From positions 806,001 to 870,000 of the forward strand of contig NZ_CP016594.1 of assembly GCF_001698225.1 (NCBI RefSeq): a stretch of DNA of 64,000 bases, in the 5' to 3' direction. How positions within the stretch are numbered: position 1 is the stretch's first letter; each line of letters begins with the position of its first letter. The notes under the pieces are model-generated. The model did no database searches. It had not been told where the DNA came from and saw only the letters and a program-made list of their open reading frames with translations. Both the position numbers and the translations under genes were made by a program. Positions 4,169 to 33,935 of this stretch are shown here, in pieces. This DNA is from Gordonia terrae (GTDB lineage: Bacteria; Actinomycetota; Actinomycetes; Mycobacteriales; Mycobacteriaceae).

Positions 4169-5053
4169 GTGAGTGCCGCCGAACGTGTCCGCGAGTGGAC
4201 ACCCCCGTGGCCGCTGGACATCGGGGCGACGGTCGGCCTGCACCGGCGCGGTGCGGGCGACCCCGCCTTCGTCTACGGACGAGACAGGTCGGTGTGGCGG
4301 GCGGCGTACACGCCCGACGGGCCGGGCACGCTGACCGTTCGCTCCGATGGTACGACCGTCACCGGACGCGCCTGGGGGCCGGGGGCGGACTGGCTGCTCG
4401 AGCAGATGCCCGATTTCCTCGGGGCGAGCGATGATCCGGACGCGCTGGTCCCACGCCACCCGGTGGTGAGCGAACTCGTCCGCCGCACCGAGGGATTGCG
4501 CCTCGGACGCACCGACCGTGTGTGGGAAGCCCTGGTGCCGGCGATCCTCGAACAGAAGGTCGTGGGCGCCGAGGCGTTCCGCGCTTGGCGGTATCTGTTG
4601 CGCCGCTACGGGACTCCCGCACCCGGCCCGGTTCCGGAGACGATGAGGGTGCCGCCACCCCAGGCGGAGTGGGCCCGCATCCCGAGCTGGGAGTGGCACC
4701 GCAGCGGCATCGAACCGGTCCGGATGCGGACGATCCGCGGGGCGACCGCCCTCGATGTCGAACGCCATGCGGCCAAGCTCACCGTGCTACGCGGCGTCGG
4801 GCGATGGACCGAGGCCGAGACGCTCTCGCGGGCGCTCGGCGACCCCGACGTCGTCAACGTCGGCGACTACCACATCCCGAAGCTGGTGGGGCTCACGCTG
4901 ATCGGCGAGGCCGTCGACGACGCGGGCATGCTCGAGTTGCTCGAACCCTATGCGGGACAGCGACAGCGCATCATCCGGATGGTCACGCGGGGCGGCGTTC
5001 GTCCCGAGCGTCGCGGACCGCGGATGACCATCCGTGACTACCGGTCGTTCTGA
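4169..5053 (+). CDS. HhH-GPD superfamily DNA glycosylase (AlkA-like)
   Basis: This 294-aa protein is likely a 3-methyladenine-type DNA glycosylase for base excision repair. The C-terminal half carries the helix-hairpin-helix (LRGVGRWTEAETL) followed by VNVGDYHIPK, where the Asp fits the catalytic position of the HhH-GPD fold. ALVPAILEQKVVGAEAFRAW is the usual long helix before it. The N-terminal half is the variable AlkA-like sheet domain. The GTG start (4169) follows the lpd stop by 4 bases, so the two are probably co-transcribed, an unusual metabolic/repair pairing. Exact lesion specificity is not readable. Confidence 0.82.
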   Translation: MSAAERVREWTPPWPLDIGATVGLHRRGAGDPAFVYGRDRSVWRAAYTPDGPGTLTVRSDGTTVTGRAWGPGADWLLEQMPDFLGASDDPDALVPRHPVVSELVRRTEGLRLGRTDRVWEALVPAILEQKVVGAEAFRAWRYLLRRYGTPAPGPVPETMRVPPPQAEWARIPSWEWHRSGIEPVRMRTIRGATALDVERHAAKLTVLRGVGRWTEAETLSRALGDPDVVNVGDYHIPKLVGLTLIGEAVDDAGMLELLEPYAGQRQRIIRMVTRGGVRPERRGPRMTIRDYRSF

Positions 5054-5066
5054 AGGGGTCGGGCCC

Positions 5067-5711
5067 CTACGATCCCGTCTTGCGTGCCAGCACGAATTGC
5101 CCCTGGCCGGTGATGGTCTGCTCGACGTCGTCCACTCCGGCGCGACGGAGGCGCTCGACGATCTCGTGGTCGTCGAAGATCCGGTATCCGCTCGCTCCGG
5201 CGAGTGGCCGGACACCCGGGAGTGAGGTGAGCGGGGTGGCCACCGAGGTGAAGACCACGATCTCGCCACCGGGCGCGGTCACTCGCACCAATTCGTCGAC
5301 GACCGGTAGGGGATCGGGGATCAGGTAGAGCGCGGCCAGGCAGGTGACCACGTCGAAGGTGTTGTCGGCGAACGGCAGTGCGTGGGCGTCACAGCGCAGG
5401 AACGCGGCCCGCCCGACAGCGTTGGTCTGCGCGGCCCGCGCCAGCATGGGTGCGGAGAAGTCCACGCCGATGCACCGACCGTCGCCGGTGAGGCCGTCGG
5501 CGATCTCTCGCGTGTAATTGCCGGGCCCACAGGCGACATCGAGCACCAGGCGGTCGCCGGGGCGGGCGAGGTAGGCGCGCAGCGCGCGATCGAAGTCGGC
5601 GGTGGACCGGCCGCCCAGACTGAAGAGCCGCGTGAAAGTCGGTCGCCACAGGTGTTCGTAGATCTCGGCGAAGTACTCGTTGCGCATCAGCCGCTGCGCG
5701 ATCGACTCCAT
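5067..5711 (-). CDS. Class I SAM-dependent methyltransferase
   Basis: A 214-aa Rossmann methyltransferase of the UbiE/Methyltransf_11 type. Motif I is VLDVACGPGNYTREIA and the acidic strand 2 end is IGVDFSAPML. Then follow CDAHALPFADNTFDVV and the ELVRVTAPGGEIVV strand. The substrate is unknown. It begins one base after the stop of the CMD-family gene upstream in the same operon. It ends convergently with the glycosylase, leaving 13 bp between. The N-terminus (NEYFAEIYEHLWRP) resembles small-molecule or quinone-type methyltransferases more than protein ones, but this is weak evidence. Confidence 0.82.
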   Translation of the reverse strand: MESIAQRLMRNEYFAEIYEHLWRPTFTRLFSLGGRSTADFDRALRAYLARPGDRLVLDVACGPGNYTREIADGLTGDGRCIGVDFSAPMLARAAQTNAVGRAAFLRCDAHALPFADNTFDVVTCLAALYLIPDPLPVVDELVRVTAPGGEIVVFTSVATPLTSLPGVRPLAGASGYRIFDDHEIVERLRRAGVDDVEQTITGQGQFVLARKTGS

Positions 5712-5712
5712 C

Positions 5713-6249
5713 TCAGGAGCGGGTGTCGCGCTGGATGCGCAGCGTGTGGATGGTGGTTGCGAGACTGTCGTACTGGCCGACGAGCAAGGTCAAGCCGATG
5801 AGCTTTCGGTCGTCGAGGTGCCGGGACAACGCCTGCCAGGCGATGTCGGAGACGTCCTTTGTCTCGACGAGTTCGTCGACGGCCCGCAGGATGGCGCGTT
5901 CGCGATCGCCCCACCCGGCGTCGGGACCCTCCAGGATGCGGTCGAATTCGTCCGCGGTGATCCCGGCCCGACGGCCGAGGCGTCGGTGATGATCGAGTTC
6001 GTAGTCGCATTTCCGAAGGTGCGCCACCCGGATGATCACCATCTCGGAGTCCTTGCGCGGCAACACTCCGAACGGCATGAGTCGGCTGCTGAAGTGGAGC
6101 CAGCCGCGGAACAGTCCCTTCGCGCGGCCGAGCGTGGAGAAGATGTGCGCGTCGTCCACACCGATCGTGCGCGCGGCTCCCCGTGCGAAGACGAAATTGA
6201 CCGGCCCTAGCTCCCGGAAACCACCCGGTGCGACGCGAGGTGTGCCCAT
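5713..6249 (-). CDS. Carboxymuconolactone decarboxylase/AhpD-like family protein
   Basis: 178 aa, starting at ATG 6249. The motif HLRKCDYELDHHRRLGRRAG is the family's C-x-Y-E-x3-H signature, and RERAILRAVDELVETKDVS is the usual second helix pair. The family includes carboxymuconolactone decarboxylase and AhpD-type peroxidase components. Only one Cys sits at the active site here (no CxxC), so a peroxidase reductase role is less likely. It is translationally close to the following methyltransferase and divergent from the MaoC hydratase, with 25 bp between starts. The function is not known. Confidence 0.78.
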   Translation of the reverse strand: MGTPRVAPGGFRELGPVNFVFARGAARTIGVDDAHIFSTLGRAKGLFRGWLHFSSRLMPFGVLPRKDSEMVIIRVAHLRKCDYELDHHRRLGRRAGITADEFDRILEGPDAGWGDRERAILRAVDELVETKDVSDIAWQALSRHLDDRKLIGLTLLVGQYDSLATTIHTLRIQRDTRS

Positions 6250-6274
6250 GGCCCCACGGTAGACTACGCGGACT

Positions 6275-6739
6275 ATGACGCACAGCACACGGACGTTCAC
6301 CAGTGTCGACGAACTCAAGGCCGCGATCGGCGAGGATCTGGGGTCGGGCGAGTGGCTCGAGATCACCCAGGAACGGGTCGACGCCTTCGCCGATGCGACC
6401 GGCGATCACCAGTGGATTCACGTCGATCCCGAGCGTGCGAAGTCCGGTCCGTTCGGGACGACCATCGCGCACGGGTACCTGACGGTGTCGCTGCTGCCGA
6501 TGATCGCCGGCAAGATCTTCACCGTCGAGGGTCCCAAGTTGGTCCTCAACTACGGGATGAACAAGTTGCGCTTCCCGAATCCGGTGAAGGTCGGCGCCCG
6601 TATCCGGTCCAACGCGGTGATCACCTCGATCGAGGAGACGCCCAAGGGCGTGAACATGGTTGTCACCAACACGGTGGAGATCGAGGGGGAGGCCAAACCC
6701 GCCTGCGTCGCCGAGAATCTCCGCGTCCTCGTCTTCTGA
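6275..6739 (+). CDS. MaoC-like (R)-specific enoyl-CoA hydratase (HtdZ/Rv0130 type)
   Basis: This 154-aa single hot-dog-fold hydratase adds water to trans-2-enoyl-CoA to give (R)-3-hydroxyacyl-CoA. The hydratase-2 motif is clear: DATGDHQWIHVDPERA with the catalytic D and H, and GPFGTTIAHGYLT. The C-terminus EGEAKPACVAE matches the M. tuberculosis Rv0130 family closely. Length is normal. It stands alone, divergent from the CMD/methyltransferase operon. Activity in beta-oxidation or in supplying hydroxyacyl units is likely; the chain-length preference is not readable. Confidence 0.9.
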   Translation: MTHSTRTFTSVDELKAAIGEDLGSGEWLEITQERVDAFADATGDHQWIHVDPERAKSGPFGTTIAHGYLTVSLLPMIAGKIFTVEGPKLVLNYGMNKLRFPNPVKVGARIRSNAVITSIEETPKGVNMVVTNTVEIEGEAKPACVAENLRVLVF

Positions 6740-6762
6740 CCCGGCGCAGAAAGTCCCGGCGC

Positions 6763-30383: not shown

Positions 30384-31259
30384 ATGCGTGTGGCGATGGC
30401 CCAGATCAGTTCGACCGACGACCCGACCGCCAACCTGGCGACGCTGCGTTCGGCCACCGAGGAGGCGGCATCCCGCGGCGCCGAGCTCGTCGTGTTCCCG
30501 GAGGCCACGATGTGCCGGTTCGGCGTGCCGTTGAAACCCGTCGCCGAGGACATCGACGGTCCGTGGGCACGCGGGGTGTCCGAAGTCGCCGCGGCGTCGG
30601 GCGTCACGGTGGTGGCCGGTATGTTCACCCCCTCCGGCGACGGCCGCGTCCGCAACACCCTCGTCGTGGCCCATCCGGACGAAACCCGTCTGGAGTATCA
30701 CAAGATCCACCTCTACGACGCGTTCGGTTTCACGGAGTCGAAGAACGTGGCCCCGGGCTCGGAACCACTGACGTTCGAGGTCGGGGGCGTCACCGTCGGT
30801 GTCGCCACCTGCTACGACATCCGTTTCCCGGGGCTGTTCACCCATCTGGCCCGGTTGGGGGCCCAGGTGATCGTGGTCCCCACGTCGTGGGGTGCCGGCC
30901 CGGGCAAGCTCCGTCAGTGGGAGGTGCTCGCCGCGGCCCGAGCGCTGGACTCGACGACCTTCGTGGTGGCCGTCGACCAGGCAGTTCCCACCGACGACGA
31001 GGCCGCGTCGTCGAGTGCGCCCACCGGAATCGGACACAGCCAAATCACAGACCCGTTCGGTACGTTGGTCGCCGCGTATCCGGATAGCATCCGGGTGGAC
31101 GTGCACGACCTCGACCTAGCACTGGTCGAGAAGGCCCGTACGCAACTGGCAGTCCTCGCCAACGAGCGGCCCCTGCCGGTCGGCGGTGGAACGGACAACG
31201 ACGTGACGCCGGCCCACGCGCGGCTCCGCGAGTCAGACGACCCAGGACGGAACCCATGA
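30384..31259 (+). CDS. Carbon-nitrogen hydrolase (nitrilase superfamily)
   Basis: 291 aa from ATG 30384. The Glu-Lys-Cys triad is intact: E40 in LVVFPEAT, K107 in YHKIHLYDAF and C143 in GVATCYDIRFP. The type resembles Nit1/Nit2 omega-amidases, which hydrolyse deaminated glutathione or alpha-ketoglutaramate. It is the equivalent of Rv0480c. Its last bases overlap the start of the DUF2993 gene (ATGA), giving coupled translation. The C-terminus is extended by a polar tail without known motif. Confidence 0.92.
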   Translation: MRVAMAQISSTDDPTANLATLRSATEEAASRGAELVVFPEATMCRFGVPLKPVAEDIDGPWARGVSEVAAASGVTVVAGMFTPSGDGRVRNTLVVAHPDETRLEYHKIHLYDAFGFTESKNVAPGSEPLTFEVGGVTVGVATCYDIRFPGLFTHLARLGAQVIVVPTSWGAGPGKLRQWEVLAAARALDSTTFVVAVDQAVPTDDEAASSSAPTGIGHSQITDPFGTLVAAYPDSIRVDVHDLDLALVEKARTQLAVLANERPLPVGGGTDNDVTPAHARLRESDDPGRNP

Positions 31260-32437
31260 GCGACAGCAACACGCCCCGCCCCGATTCCTCATCCGGGGAG
31301 CCCGCCGACGAGACCGGGAAGCTCGATCCGCACGCGGGTGACCCCACCCACACCGATCCCGCGGCCGGCGAGACGACTCCGGCCGAACGAGGCGGCGAAT
31401 GGCAGCCGGTCCCCGGCGCAGGTCACGGTGAGCCTCCCGCGACCGAGCAGTTCGCGACCGAGCCGATCGTCCCGGGTGGGCAGGCGTACTCCGCCATCCC
31501 GCCGTCGGACGGCGACACCACGGATCTCGGCGGTACCAAGCCGCCGACGTCCCAGTTCGCACCCGGCGAGGATCCCTACGGCCCCGCCGCGGCGTCGGGA
31601 CCGATCACCCCGGGTCCTGCCGACCCCACCGGCAGCGGGCCGGTCTTCACCTCACCGCGCAAGAAGCGCAGCACGGGCAAGATCGTGGCCTTCAGCCTGG
31701 TCGGCGTGCTGCTCCTGGTGGTGATCGGCGCGGTCGGCAGCGAGCTGTACCTGCGCAACAAGGTCACCAACTGTCTCGAGGAGTCCTTCAGCGGACTCAC
31801 CGGCGTGCCCACCGAGGTGTCGCTGAGCCGCAAGCCGATCATCCTGCAGGGCAGCGGTGACATCCCGTTCGTCCAGGTCGACACCGATGACAGTGCCGGG
31901 GGCGTCCGCCTGCACATGCGCGCCGACGGTATCTCCGGCACCGAGAACTCCACCGACATCCGCAGTCTCAACGGCACGGGCTTCATCCCGTACGAGCGGA
32001 TCGTCGAATTGAGCAAGGAGCAGGCGTCCGGCGCCGGGACCGGCACCGGAACCGGGGCGGGCGGTGTCGGCGCGGTCGAGCAGATCACCGGCAACGCCGC
32101 CGACGGCACCTTCGAGGTCCAGGCCGCGTTCCCGGTCATGGTCTTCCAGGTGCCGGTGTCGGCGACGATCAAACCCGTTCTCAAGGACGGCCGGGTCGAC
32201 TTCGAGGTCGTCAAGGCCAGCGCGCTGGTGTTCGGCATTCCGCCGGACTTCGCGCAGCAGATCGTCGATCAGATCACGACCTCGTCGCTCGGACCCTTCT
32301 TCGACGAGGTGCAGGTCGACTCGCTGAAGGTCACCGACACGGGCCTCGAGTTCGGGGTCAGCGGTTCGGACGTGCAGTTGACGAGTGAGATGACCGGCAC
32401 GTCGTCGCAGGGGCAGTCGGGCGGCTGCTCGGTCTGA
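31256..32437 (+). CDS. DUF2993 membrane-anchored envelope protein
   Basis: 393 aa. A Pro/Thr/Gly-rich cytoplasmic region of about 135 residues is followed by one transmembrane helix (about 142-163, IVAFSLVGVLLLVVIGAVG). The extracytoplasmic part has the DUF2993 layout: SELYLRNKVTNCLEESFSGL, then a long beta-rich region and a final QSGGCSV. DUF2993 proteins are predicted lipid-binding tubes facing the envelope. The two cysteines at the ends could bond. It is the equivalent of Rv0479c, overlapping the nitrilase by 4 bp. Confidence 0.85.
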   Translation: MSDSNTPRPDSSSGEPADETGKLDPHAGDPTHTDPAAGETTPAERGGEWQPVPGAGHGEPPATEQFATEPIVPGGQAYSAIPPSDGDTTDLGGTKPPTSQFAPGEDPYGPAAASGPITPGPADPTGSGPVFTSPRKKRSTGKIVAFSLVGVLLLVVIGAVGSELYLRNKVTNCLEESFSGLTGVPTEVSLSRKPIILQGSGDIPFVQVDTDDSAGGVRLHMRADGISGTENSTDIRSLNGTGFIPYERIVELSKEQASGAGTGTGTGAGGVGAVEQITGNAADGTFEVQAAFPVMVFQVPVSATIKPVLKDGRVDFEVVKASALVFGIPPDFAQQIVDQITTSSLGPFFDEVQVDSLKVTDTGLEFGVSGSDVQLTSEMTGTSSQGQSGGCSV

Positions 32438-32459: not shown

Positions 32460-33086
32460 CTAGACGACGGTTCCGGGTGGGTCGACTCTCAGGAACCAGA
32501 CCGTCGGCCCATCCGTCAGGGTGAACTCGTCGTAGACCCGGCCGCGCCATTTGCGGGCATACACGTCGATCATCTGCGCATCCGCGGTGCTGGCGGTGAC
32601 CGGCGATCCCGCGTCGAGAGCTTGTCGCAGAACCGGCTCGAGGAGCGCTGCGAGCGTTCCGTGTCGTCGATGGTCCGGGTGGACCAGTGCGAAGACGATG
32701 CTGTGTGCACCGCCGACCGCACGTGCCCGGGACTTCTCCTGCAGTTCGCGGAAGCGAGCGATGAAACCGTCGATGGCGATCACGAAATGGCGCGAGCGCG
32801 CCATCAATTCGTCGTCGACGGGTTGGGTGTGGTGGTCGGGGCCGGCGACGGCCATCAGGGCGACCATTTCGCCCTCGGGCGTGAACATTCCCTGCGCCCC
32901 CGGCAGGTGGTCGGTGAAGAGAATGTCGCCGTACCAGCGAAACGCCTCGACGGGGGCCGCCTCGCCCAACAGCCAGCGGTACACGGGGACTTCGCGAATC
33001 CCGTTTTCGAGGAGATCGAGTGCGCGGTCACGGTCATCGGTGATGAGGGGGCGCACCCGCACGTCGGCCGTCTGCACCTCTGTCAT
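32460..33086 (-). CDS. GNAT-family N-acetyltransferase
   Basis: 208 aa. The acetyl-CoA binding part is FALVHPDHRRHGTLAALLEPVL (R/Q-x2-G-x-G/A loop variant) in the C-terminal half. The region before it (RWYGDILFTDHLPGAQGMF, then EMVALMAVAGPDH) forms the sheet. The substrate is not readable. It is convergent with the DUF2993 gene and is followed upstream by the AT-rich region that precedes the small peptide genes. Confidence 0.75.
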   Translation of the reverse strand: MTEVQTADVRVRPLITDDRDRALDLLENGIREVPVYRWLLGEAAPVEAFRWYGDILFTDHLPGAQGMFTPEGEMVALMAVAGPDHHTQPVDDELMARSRHFVIAIDGFIARFRELQEKSRARAVGGAHSIVFALVHPDHRRHGTLAALLEPVLRQALDAGSPVTASTADAQMIDVYARKWRGRVYDEFTLTDGPTVWFLRVDPPGTVV

Positions 33087-33202: not shown

Positions 33203-33231
33203 AGGACGTTTCCGTGATCGGTCTGTAACGT
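33203..33231 (+). promoter_or_regulatory. Promoter of small peptide gene 1
   Basis: A candidate -35 (AGGACG, 33203-33208) and -10 (TAACGT, 33226-33231, preceded by CTG) are 17 bp apart. TTTCCG and ATCG in the spacer are at the same positions as in the promoter of peptide gene 2. About 60 bp of AT-rich DNA lies directly upstream (33145-33200), unusual for this genome, and may be an UP-like or nucleoid-protein site. Confidence 0.6.
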
Positions 33232-33252
33232 CGCCGTCAGGTCGTTCCGCGA

Positions 33253-33287
33253 GATGAGACGTGCGGCCGAAGACGAGAGATCTCATC
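33253..33287 (+). promoter_or_regulatory. Leader hairpin of small peptide gene 1
   Basis: GATGAGA (33253-33259) pairs with TCTCATC (33281-33287) around a 21-base loop, ending 6 bases before the AAGGGAG ribosome site. The second peptide gene has the same hairpin with GGTGAGA/TCTCACC: the A-T pair is replaced by G-C, a compensatory change. It may control translation or mRNA stability. Confidence 0.6.
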
Positions 33288-33306
33288 ACCATCAAGGGAG
33301 ACGGAT

Positions 33307-33435
33307 ATGGCAGGCATTGTCGAGGGCGGTATCGCTGGTGCGATCGGTGGAGCCGTCGAGGCGATTCTCGGCGGTCTCGGAGACGCGGGTTCGATCGGCG
33401 GCGGATCGATCGACGGCAGTGATTCCGGGGCCTGA
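33307..33435 (+). CDS. Small amphipathic peptide gene 1 (42 aa)
   Basis: This 42-aa peptide begins MAGIVEGGIAGAIGGAVEA. AAGGGAG lies 7 bases upstream of the ATG, and a hairpin terminator follows the TGA. Residues 4-24 form an amphipathic helix with I/V/L on one face (I4, I9, I13, V17, I20/L21, L24) and Gly/Ala spacing. The rest is a Gly/Ser/Asp-rich tail. There is no signal peptide and no positive charge. It is homologous to the 34-aa peptide 472 bp downstream; the block EGGIxGAI is shared. I do not recognise a family. The small, acidic, signal-less helical porins (PorA/PorH) of corynebacteria are a formal analogy only. Regulatory or membrane-active roles are also open. Confidence 0.72.
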   Translation: MAGIVEGGIAGAIGGAVEAILGGLGDAGSIGGGSIDGSDSGA

Positions 33436-33451
33436 TCAGACGGAATACGGT

Positions 33452-33488
33452 TCAGCGGTTGGTGACGCGCGGCGCCACCAGCCGCTGA
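33452..33488 (+). terminator. Terminator after small peptide gene 1
   Basis: TCAGCGGTTGGTG pairs with CACCAGCCGCTGA (one G-T pair) around an 11-base loop, 16 bp after the stop. CCTCTTTCT follows. Confidence 0.75.
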
Positions 33489-33675
33489 CCTCTTTCTGGG
33501 TCAGATCAAGAACGGCGACAACGCGCAGTACGTTGCATTGTCGATGCATCGAGAAAATGTTCGGATTCTGTTTACGTTGATTTCAATCAATGTGTCTTCG
33601 GCAGCTCACCTGCGGCAATGCCGGCCCTTCGCCCCTGTTTTCTCGGAGTTCCGGTAATTGATCTCGACGGTAGGG

Positions 33676-33704
33676 GAGACATTTCCGAAATCGATATGTA
33701 ACGT
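33676..33704 (+). promoter_or_regulatory. Promoter of small peptide gene 2
   Basis: GAGACA (33676-33681) and TAACGT (33699-33704) are 17 bp apart, with TTTCCG and ATCG in the spacer exactly as in the promoter of gene 1. Upstream, 33574-33587 (TTGATTTCAATCAA) is a palindrome with 6-bp arms in AT-rich DNA. The intergenic stretch 33489-33675 holds no supported gene. Confidence 0.6.
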
Positions 33705-33724
33705 CGGCAACGAGCCGACGCACG

Positions 33725-33760
33725 GGTGAGAGCGGACGGTGATCTACGAACAATCTCACC
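33725..33760 (+). promoter_or_regulatory. Leader hairpin of small peptide gene 2
   Basis: GGTGAGA (33725-33731) pairs with TCTCACC (33754-33760) around a 22-base loop, 7 bases before AAGGAG. It is the counterpart of the gene 1 hairpin, at the same distance from promoter and start, with one compensated base pair. Confidence 0.6.
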
Positions 33761-33778
33761 GATGACGAAGGAGTAGAT

Positions 33779-33883
33779 ATGTCAGACGCAATCGAAGGCG
33801 GCATCTCCGGCGCTATCGAGGAGATCCTCGGCAATGTGCTCACCGGTTCGCTCGGCAACGACGACGCCGGCACCGGCGAGTAG
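33779..33883 (+). CDS. Small amphipathic peptide gene 2 (34 aa)
   Basis: This 34-aa peptide begins MSDAIEGGISGAIEEIL. AAGGAG lies 5 bases upstream of the ATG, and a perfect hairpin terminator follows the TAG. Residues 4-21 give an amphipathic helix (I5, I9, I13, I16/L17, V20/L21), then an acidic tail LGNDDAGTGE. Aligned with peptide 1 it keeps EGGIxGAI, then E-x-ILG, with a four-residue gap. It is acidic, without signal peptide or Cys. Promoter, leader hairpin and ribosome site are also shared with gene 1, which makes chance translation of noise unlikely. The function is unknown. Confidence 0.74.
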   Translation: MSDAIEGGISGAIEEILGNVLTGSLGNDDAGTGE

Positions 33884-33903: not shown

Positions 33904-33935
33904 CACCGCCCCGCGACGAAAGTCGCGGGGCGGTG
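33904..33935. terminator. Strong hairpin after small peptide gene 2, facing purU
   Basis: CACCGCCCCGCGAC-GAAA-GTCGCGGGGCGGTG is a perfect 14-bp stem with a GAAA tetraloop. It is placed 20 bp after the peptide stop and 16 bp before the purU stop on the other strand, so it can serve both convergent units. Confidence 0.9.

Follow-up and report, generated by a model that had tools for sequence, protein, structure and literature searches.

Tiny peptide genes of Gordonia terrae and their linkage to a GNAT-fold protein, an ABC transporter pair and a MytC-like mycoloyltransferase

Two tiny genes, here called p1 and p2, lie in a 64,000-nucleotide stretch of Gordonia terrae DNA (contig NZ_CP016594.1, positions 806,001 to 870,000; hereafter the window, in whose coordinates positions are given). 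They belong to a family of short peptides whose genes are linked, in Gordonia and Jongsikchunia, to genes encoding a GNAT-fold protein, the two halves of an ABC transporter and a secreted mycoloyltransferase. On this gene context, it is reasonably probable that the peptides are signal-less products exported by the ABC pair, O-mycoloylated on Ser or Thr in their tails and lodged in the outer mycomembrane. The preliminary description of this stretch had listed membrane-active, porin-like, regulatory and signalling roles as alternatives; the ABC pair and the MytC-like gene favour the envelope end of that list.

The tiny genes and their upstream regions

The features discussed below, in order along the stretch and as read from the sequence, are as follows.

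32460-33086, minus strand: gene for a 208-aa GNAT-fold acyltransferase, read away from p1; it belongs to the GNAT subfamily that accompanies the peptides
33209-33231, plus strand: p1 promoter-like block, TTTCCG-N11-TAACGT; four other p1 copies have a similar block that differs in some bases
33253-33287, plus strand: p1 leader hairpin, GATGAGA/TCTCATC (arms 33253-33259 and 33281-33287)
33307-33435, plus strand: p1 peptide gene, 42 aa, MAGIVEGG...GSDSGA, Shine-Dalgarno (SD) sequence AAGGGAG; pN/pS 0.21 over four species
33470-33487, plus strand: terminator-like hairpin after p1
33676-33704, plus strand: p2 promoter-like block, GAGACA-N17-TAACGT, which includes TTTCCG at 33682
33702-33720, no strand assigned: perfect inverted repeat CGTCGGC-N5-GCCGACG over the TAACGT (-10-like box) of p2, a candidate operator
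33725-33760, plus strand: p2 leader hairpin, GGTGAGA/TCTCACC (arms 33725-33731 and 33754-33760), from direct comparison of the arms
33779-33883, plus strand: p2 peptide gene, 34 aa, MSDAIEGG...TGSLGNDDAGTGE, SD sequence GAAGGAG; pN/pS 0.27 over 26 codons and four species
33905-33934, plus strand: 13-bp GC-rich hairpin after p2, with no T run; a similar one follows p2 in five other genomes (L066-L070)

The two open reading frames, of 42 and 34 aa and 472 bp apart from start to start, are present as first described, and so is their kinship (12 of 24 residues identical, E 2e-4 as a single comparison). They lie in locally AT-rich DNA: GC content is 52% in the gap ahead of p1 and 54% in the one separating p1 from p2, against 68% for the window. 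A search for homologues and a comparison of synonymous with nonsynonymous change both came out in favour of the genes. Orthologues of p1 and p2 occupy the same place in G. lacunae (G068), Gordonia sp. 'Campus', G065 and G073, and in G067 the genus profile search matched p2 alone. Per site, synonymous changes outnumber replacements by a factor of about four to five, and pooled pN/pS is well below 1; the exception is p2 between G065 and G073 (1.8), one of 12 pairwise comparisons. The start codons and SD sequences are conserved. Because orthologues with a similar promoter block and stem share the place in other Gordonia, and because synonymous changes dominate, the observation stands above chance, and by these sequence comparisons p1 and p2 are real genes. 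The earlier claim of two real, separately transcribed genes thus stands in so far as it concerns real genes with promoter-like blocks of their own. Two of its other parts fare less well. The peptides had been called amphipathic, yet by helical moment p1 and p2 do not stand out from shuffled sequences, 16% of which reach the same value. They had also been called too short for usual gene calling, which does not hold for some relatives, annotated in Gordonia as hypothetical proteins. In the AlphaFold2 model of p2 (pLDDT 72), a helix spanning residues 2-23 is followed by an unordered tail. With Met removed, the calculated average masses are 3426.7 Da for p1 and 3132.3 Da for p2.

The equal promoter layout proposed for the two genes is evident, with TTTCCG at 33209 and 33682, ATCG 8 bases on and TAACGT 17 bases on (33226 and 33699). 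From TAACGT to the ATG there are 81 bases in p1 and 80 in p2. A block like that of p2 also precedes the p2 orthologues and the exporter-linked peptides in L109-L113. Neither the p1 nor the p2 block passed a strict scan for sigma-70 promoters. Both leader stems are 7 bp long and start 54 bases ahead of the start codon; MAFFT left them out of register, and the arms were therefore compared directly. The covarying hairpin of the preliminary description survives in part: the stems are there and differ by one compensated pair, but a 7-bp stem alone is common, with 12% and 34% of shuffled sequences equalling it for the two leaders of the window. Support for the stem comes instead from its recurrence at one position with changes that keep the pairing. 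The GGTGAGA/TCTCACC arms occur in three of four other p1 leaders, and in L109-L111 the stem is short or was not found. The p1 leader folds no better than shuffled sequences (z 0.5); that of p2 has a z-score of -3.8, but this value counts an arm overlapping TAACGT, that is, upstream of the expected transcript start. The CGTCG...CGACG core of the p2 inverted repeat is kept in five other p2 leaders and was not seen in p1. The repeat lies over the expected -10; it may be an operator rather than an RNA structure. Of the terminator hairpin claimed for each gene, what remains is a single terminator-like site, after p1, a number near chance (0.5 expected); the hairpin after p2 lacks a T run. The only match to known RNA families in the window is a tRNA.

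A peptide family and the genes that accompany it

With a profile built from six family members, 28 places in 59 genomes of the genus score E≤1e-3. Statistics refer to 58 distinct Gordonia and Jongsikchunia peptides, several of which came to light with profiles built from the rest; a further seven, weaker and one of them net neutral, were left out (E 0.005-0.7; L164 twice, L167, L169, L177, L180 and L219/L221). The peptides are 23-42 aa long, and all 58 have a negative net charge and no Cys. Lys and Arg together number at most one in 56 of them, and 50 have no Lys. Position 2 is occupied by Ala, Ser or Gly in 57/58, and the last 15 residues are rich in Gly, Ser, Thr and Ala (mean fraction 0.58). 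By eye, they lack the basic N-terminus and long hydrophobic core of a signal sequence. At least six are encoded in this genome: p1, p2, three at a second locus (locus B) and one at a third (locus C).

The statement that no family was recognised holds for Pfam and NCBIfam, where neither p1 nor p2 has an entry: at E≤10 there is no Pfam match for p1, p2 and two relatives, and no NCBIfam match for p1, p2 and seven relatives. In a search of 5.8 billion proteins, all organism-named matches are hypothetical or uncharacterised proteins from Gordonia. Over 301 genomes of the taxonomic family, the peptide profile has solid matches in this genus only. A match in G088:C24 (3.6e-4) was dismissed as a low-complexity repeat and one in G314 as antisense to a longer reading frame, and weak matches in G130, G132, G161, G185, G302 and G307 (E 0.02-0.05) were left out of the assessment.

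One peptide copy, beginning MAEAIVGAI, has a mobile look. It occurs as near-identical DNA in five Gordonia genomes (L118 9140-9235; G019:C63, G022:C36, G034:C78 and G075:C70), and in L118 it sits amid what by eye are transposase-like genes, away from any of the gene sets described below. Here the peptide gene alone has apparently spread horizontally. A PLSDB search with this copy found two Gordonia plasmids, with matches of just 44-45 bases.

The GNAT gene had been mentioned as a mere flanking landmark. It does adjoin p1, but its subfamily travels with the peptides, and the unit thus starts at 32460. Its Pfam matches are below the cut-offs; the AlphaFold2 model has a pLDDT of 94.4 and its best PDB match is puromycin N-acetyltransferase (7k09, TM 0.75-0.81), so that the product has, in prediction, a GNAT fold. 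A single-sequence search of this genome with the GNAT finds it at three sites (the window, locus B and locus C), each with a tiny peptide alongside. Across the genus, 22 of the 28 peptide matches have a member of this subfamily at a distance of 5 kb or less, a count that is partly by construction because GNATs already known to lie next to peptides were used to build the GNAT profile (A4). The count takes peptide matches at E≤1e-3, excludes weaker ones and covers 23 of 59 GNAT places; the peptide search predates the discovery of the GNAT link. The other six matches are the five near-identical mobile copies and one locus A without a GNAT. Conversely, nine GNAT loci have no peptide match by this profile (L165, L168, L173, L182, L215, L216, L217, L218 and L222). 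Strong relatives of the GNAT (E≤1e-32, 401 genomes of the taxonomic family) occur only in Gordonia and in Jongsikchunia kroppenstedtii (G093), the next match being at 7e-16.

Two GNAT copies have an in-frame stop within the match (G065:C1:2605098-2605658 and G071:C1:3879996-3880520), probably through decay or sequencing error. The third peptide and GNAT locus of this genome is L172 7548-8275 (G000:C1:2735547-2736274), with the peptide MAEGPIELEIDFLGPILETLSTGS...; it has no ABC match nearby, and orthologue-like peptides occur in several Gordonia.

Genes were mapped at 38 loci and the window and then at 11 further loci. The full set in relatives reads GNAT, ABC half 1 (ABC1), ABC half 2 (ABC2), tiny peptide or peptides and secreted mycoloyltransferase. 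The GNAT and both ABC halves map together in 21 Gordonia and Jongsikchunia genomes; within the stretch fetched, the transferase is present in 17 of the 21 and a peptide match likewise in 17, one of these (L167) at E 0.6 only. The ABC/GNAT loci with no transferase in the stretch fetched are L116, L176, L177 and L178. In five sister species (L109-L113), the set GNAT-ABC1-ABC2-peptide-transferase fills the interval between the homologue of the 31256-32437 gene and purU, the position taken in the window by the GNAT, p1 and p2.

No ABC or transferase gene is present at the window locus. The ABC pair and transferase of this genome are at locus B (L108 6702-11402, equal to G000:C1:1661701-1666401), together with three peptides, a second GNAT, two MspA porin genes and a gene that we take to encode an MscL-like protein. 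The reverse arrangement is found in G. alkanivorans (G014) and G. amicalis (G019), where locus B (L104, L105) has the peptides, GNAT and MspA pair without ABC or transferase, and the ABC pair and transferase occupy the window's position (L109, L113). In each of these three genomes, then, a single exporter set was seen along with two or more peptide loci, and this would account for the lack of these genes in the window; the rest of its unit likely lies outside the window, at G000:C1:1661701-1666401. Copy numbers of ABC1 go with the GNAT: in the list of 30 genomes from the same genus, every one of the 14 with the GNAT has two or more ABC1 matches at E≤1e-110, and every one of the 16 without it has exactly one (Fisher p 7e-9).

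Several neighbouring features were recorded. The two MspA-family porin genes of locus B (L108 3216-4662, PF09203 match) are accompanied by a further ABC gene (4806-6761), and the MspA pair also occurs in L104, L105, L117 and L258. The 393-aa protein encoded at 31256-32437 of the window has no Pfam or NCBIfam match and keeps its syntenic place next to the peptide locus in L101, L102, L109-L113 and L116. In G. paraffinivorans (G023), L116 142-9925 is a tandem pair of GNAT-peptide-ABC2-ABC1 units; the 15 kb fetched there showed no transferase. In L110 8129-9887 (G018), the ABC1 match is split into two overlapping pieces in different frames, possibly by a frameshift or a sequencing error.

The linked transferases match C. 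glutamicum Cmt1 (MytC) best among solved structures, at 248-249 bits, followed by PS1 (132-142) and Ag85A (103-110). PF00756 matches were found in five relatives. The locus-B copy aligns to Cmt1 over most of its length and keeps the residues at S189, E310 and H341, the Ser/Glu/His triad of MytC/Cmt1 named in the relevant part of PMC11927696; by sequence, the linked gene carries an Ag85-type esterase domain with this triad. It is one of 15 transferase-family matches in this genome, and an unlinked paralogue scores 250 bits against Cmt1 and another 228. What singles out the transferase of the module is thus its linkage and not its score, and we do not claim orthology.

The ABC pair and transferase in other genera

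In the genus labelled g31 (seven of seven loci fetched) and in G088 (genus g28), ABC1 and ABC2 are found with a transferase 60-71% identical and with tiny Gly/Ser/Thr-tailed peptides, one or two of them upstream of ABC1; there is no GNAT. The g31 sample comprises seven of the nine genomes listed, three of which were picked because the enzyme had already been seen there, and the g31 and G088 peptides were chosen from a list of open reading frames by strand, SD and tail, with no trained profile. G088 shares with locus B the order MspA-MspA-transferase-ABC2-ABC1-peptide and the MscL-like gene, with one extra esterase-family gene before the latter.

ABC1 alone was rejected as a marker: 250 of 301 genomes match at E≤1e-110, at about 41-46% identity outside the genus among the matches listed. 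Control ABC1 homologues, 11 from other genera and 10 from g24, had neither a transferase nor a tailed peptide beside them in any case; in L268 a transferase match of 45% lies about 6.7 kb off, and L267 has one acidic short open reading frame without such a tail. In g24, a genus of small genomes, each of the 10 genomes searched has one ABC1 homologue, with no transferase or tailed peptide within 1.5-kb flanks, which left no way to connect these loci with PorA/PorH. The Gordonia ABC halves share 43-46% identity with their counterparts in g31 and G088, which are no closer than the control homologues. It is thus not established that the module descends from a common ancestor in these genera, and like loci may have been assembled independently.

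A possible envelope pathway and known systems

We propose the following model for the p1/p2 family. The ABC pair would carry the peptides across the plasma membrane, with p1 and p2 using the exporter of locus B. The locus-B transferase would then add a mycolate, possibly at the Ser of a TGS motif or in the tail. Known mycoloylation sites are described in part of PMC11066868 as Ser or Thr amid Ser, Gly and Ala, and ProtX, according to a section of PMC5310785, is modified at S37, its penultimate Ser. Before export, the GNAT may acylate the N-terminus bared by removal of Met, a step suggested by the Ala, Ser or Gly that follows Met in nearly all the peptides. Finally, and this is the weakest step, paralogues could assemble into helical pores like PorA/PorH; by analogy, surface coat or receptor roles like those of ProtX, which portions of PMC9671496 present as a phage receptor, are equally open. 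More broadly, these loci may represent a dedicated pathway for outer-membrane peptides of mycolata, with ABC export, a GNAT-added N-terminal cap beforehand in Gordonia and MytC-type mycoloylation by a same-locus enzyme on arrival; we hold this wider reading tentatively, at somewhat short of even chances.

It is unlikely that the peptides are exported by the ABC pair only to be released as surfactant, spreading or signalling peptides, with the transferase as a chance or ancestral envelope neighbour. Staphylococcal phenol-soluble modulins, small acidic peptides that lack a signal and occur in tandem with their ABC exporter, Pmt, are a model for this. The family here is likewise small, acidic, without an evident signal and often in tandem copies beside such an exporter; the likeness is to PSM-beta. 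However, the transferase stands beside the ABC genes and peptides in most Gordonia and Jongsikchunia genomes mapped (17/21), in g31 and in G088, and beside none of the 21 control ABC homologues. The peptides also differ from the modulins in their mycoloyltransferase and GNAT partners, their Gly/Ser/Thr tails and the lack of a Pfam match (E≤10; p1, p2 and two relatives), and their helical moment is unremarkable against shuffled sequences.

A little less likely again is that the peptides are small membrane subunits tuning the ABC pair, whose true cargo would be a lipid or mycolate derivative. Their position just upstream of ABC1 in many loci would suit such a role, as would the best NCBIfam match of ABC1, which is MsbA-like, though far below the cut-off. 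Yet a single exporter goes with several distinct paralogues, and some loci have peptides but no ABC gene (the window, L172, L104 and L105); the Gly/Ser/Thr tails and the MytC-like enzyme are better suited to a modified cargo. The predicted GNAT fold raises a third alternative, a lipopeptide natural product, antibiotic-like or signalling, that receives a fatty acyl group from the GNAT and leaves the cell through the ABC pair. There is precedent for lipopeptide maturases of the GNAT type in the selidamides. This we consider improbable, since neither a leader/core architecture nor a protease gene caught the eye in the gene maps, most of the peptides (50/58) have no Lys and the g31 and G088 loci have no GNAT. 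It is very improbable that the peptides act inside the cell, as regulators or toxin components with no relation to the envelope genes: the peptide genes do have their own promoter-like blocks and a leader stem, but they are linked to an exporter and a transferase, and no long hydrophobic span or antitoxin-like partner was noticed. That p1 and p2 are spurious reading frames in a promoter-rich gap has next to no probability, short and without a Pfam or NCBIfam name as they are, given the pN/pS values, the conserved starts and SD sequences and the peptide matches in 17 of 21 ABC/GNAT genomes.

If the wider reading of a dedicated peptide pathway is right, it would be the first candidate export route for proteins like PorA, PorH and ProtX. 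The linkage makes the question of signal-less export testable by a few deletions, and at least six such peptides in one genome would, if located in the envelope, bear on permeability, phage adsorption and drug entry.

The MspA family, outer-membrane porins of mycolata, adjoins the peptides at locus B with two genes and has no match to p1, p2 and two relatives in Pfam (PF09203); its members are treated in part of PMC9233653 as large proteins with signal peptides. Rhodococcus PorA/PorB were rejected as relatives, being MspA-type products of 540-702 bp genes with signal peptides in the same partial source. In the literature, as far as the portions retrieved go, we found no paper tying Gordonia tiny peptides, the peptide-linked GNAT or an ABC pair to mycoloylation; for the pore protein of Gordonia jacobaea, only a genome note (PMC4559739) was to the point among the matches listed.

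The closest likenesses are with C. glutamicum. PorA and PorH (45 and 57 aa) are, like p1 and p2, tiny and predicted to be helical, with two peptide genes together; they have no signal sequence, and none is evident by eye in p1 and p2. To our knowledge, no exporter or GNAT is linked to them. By sequence, p1 and p2 are not members of the PorH family: the PorH model NF033938 has no match in this genome and was positive in a C. glutamicum control. ProtX (38 aa), by description, resembles p1 and p2 in its size and has no classical signal sequence; we know of no ABC or GNAT link for it. Parts of PMC12632848 and PMC5310785 portray PorA, PorH and ProtX as tiny, signal-less and mycoloylated with MytC, and call their export route unclear; the former holds PorH to be independent of the type VII system. 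In sections of PMC9671496, PMC11927696 and PMC5310785, mycoloylation of PorA and ProtX depends on MytC, and in PMC11927696 and PMC12632848, likewise in part, PorA and PorH depend on Cmt1/MytC for their modification or level. There the tie to Cmt1 is one of dependence; here it is a Cmt1-like gene that is linked, aligning with its counterpart over most of its length and keeping the triad. In Gordonia, and more loosely in two other genera, a peptide class resembling PorA, PorH and ProtX is thus linked by its genes to an ABC pair and a MytC-like enzyme.
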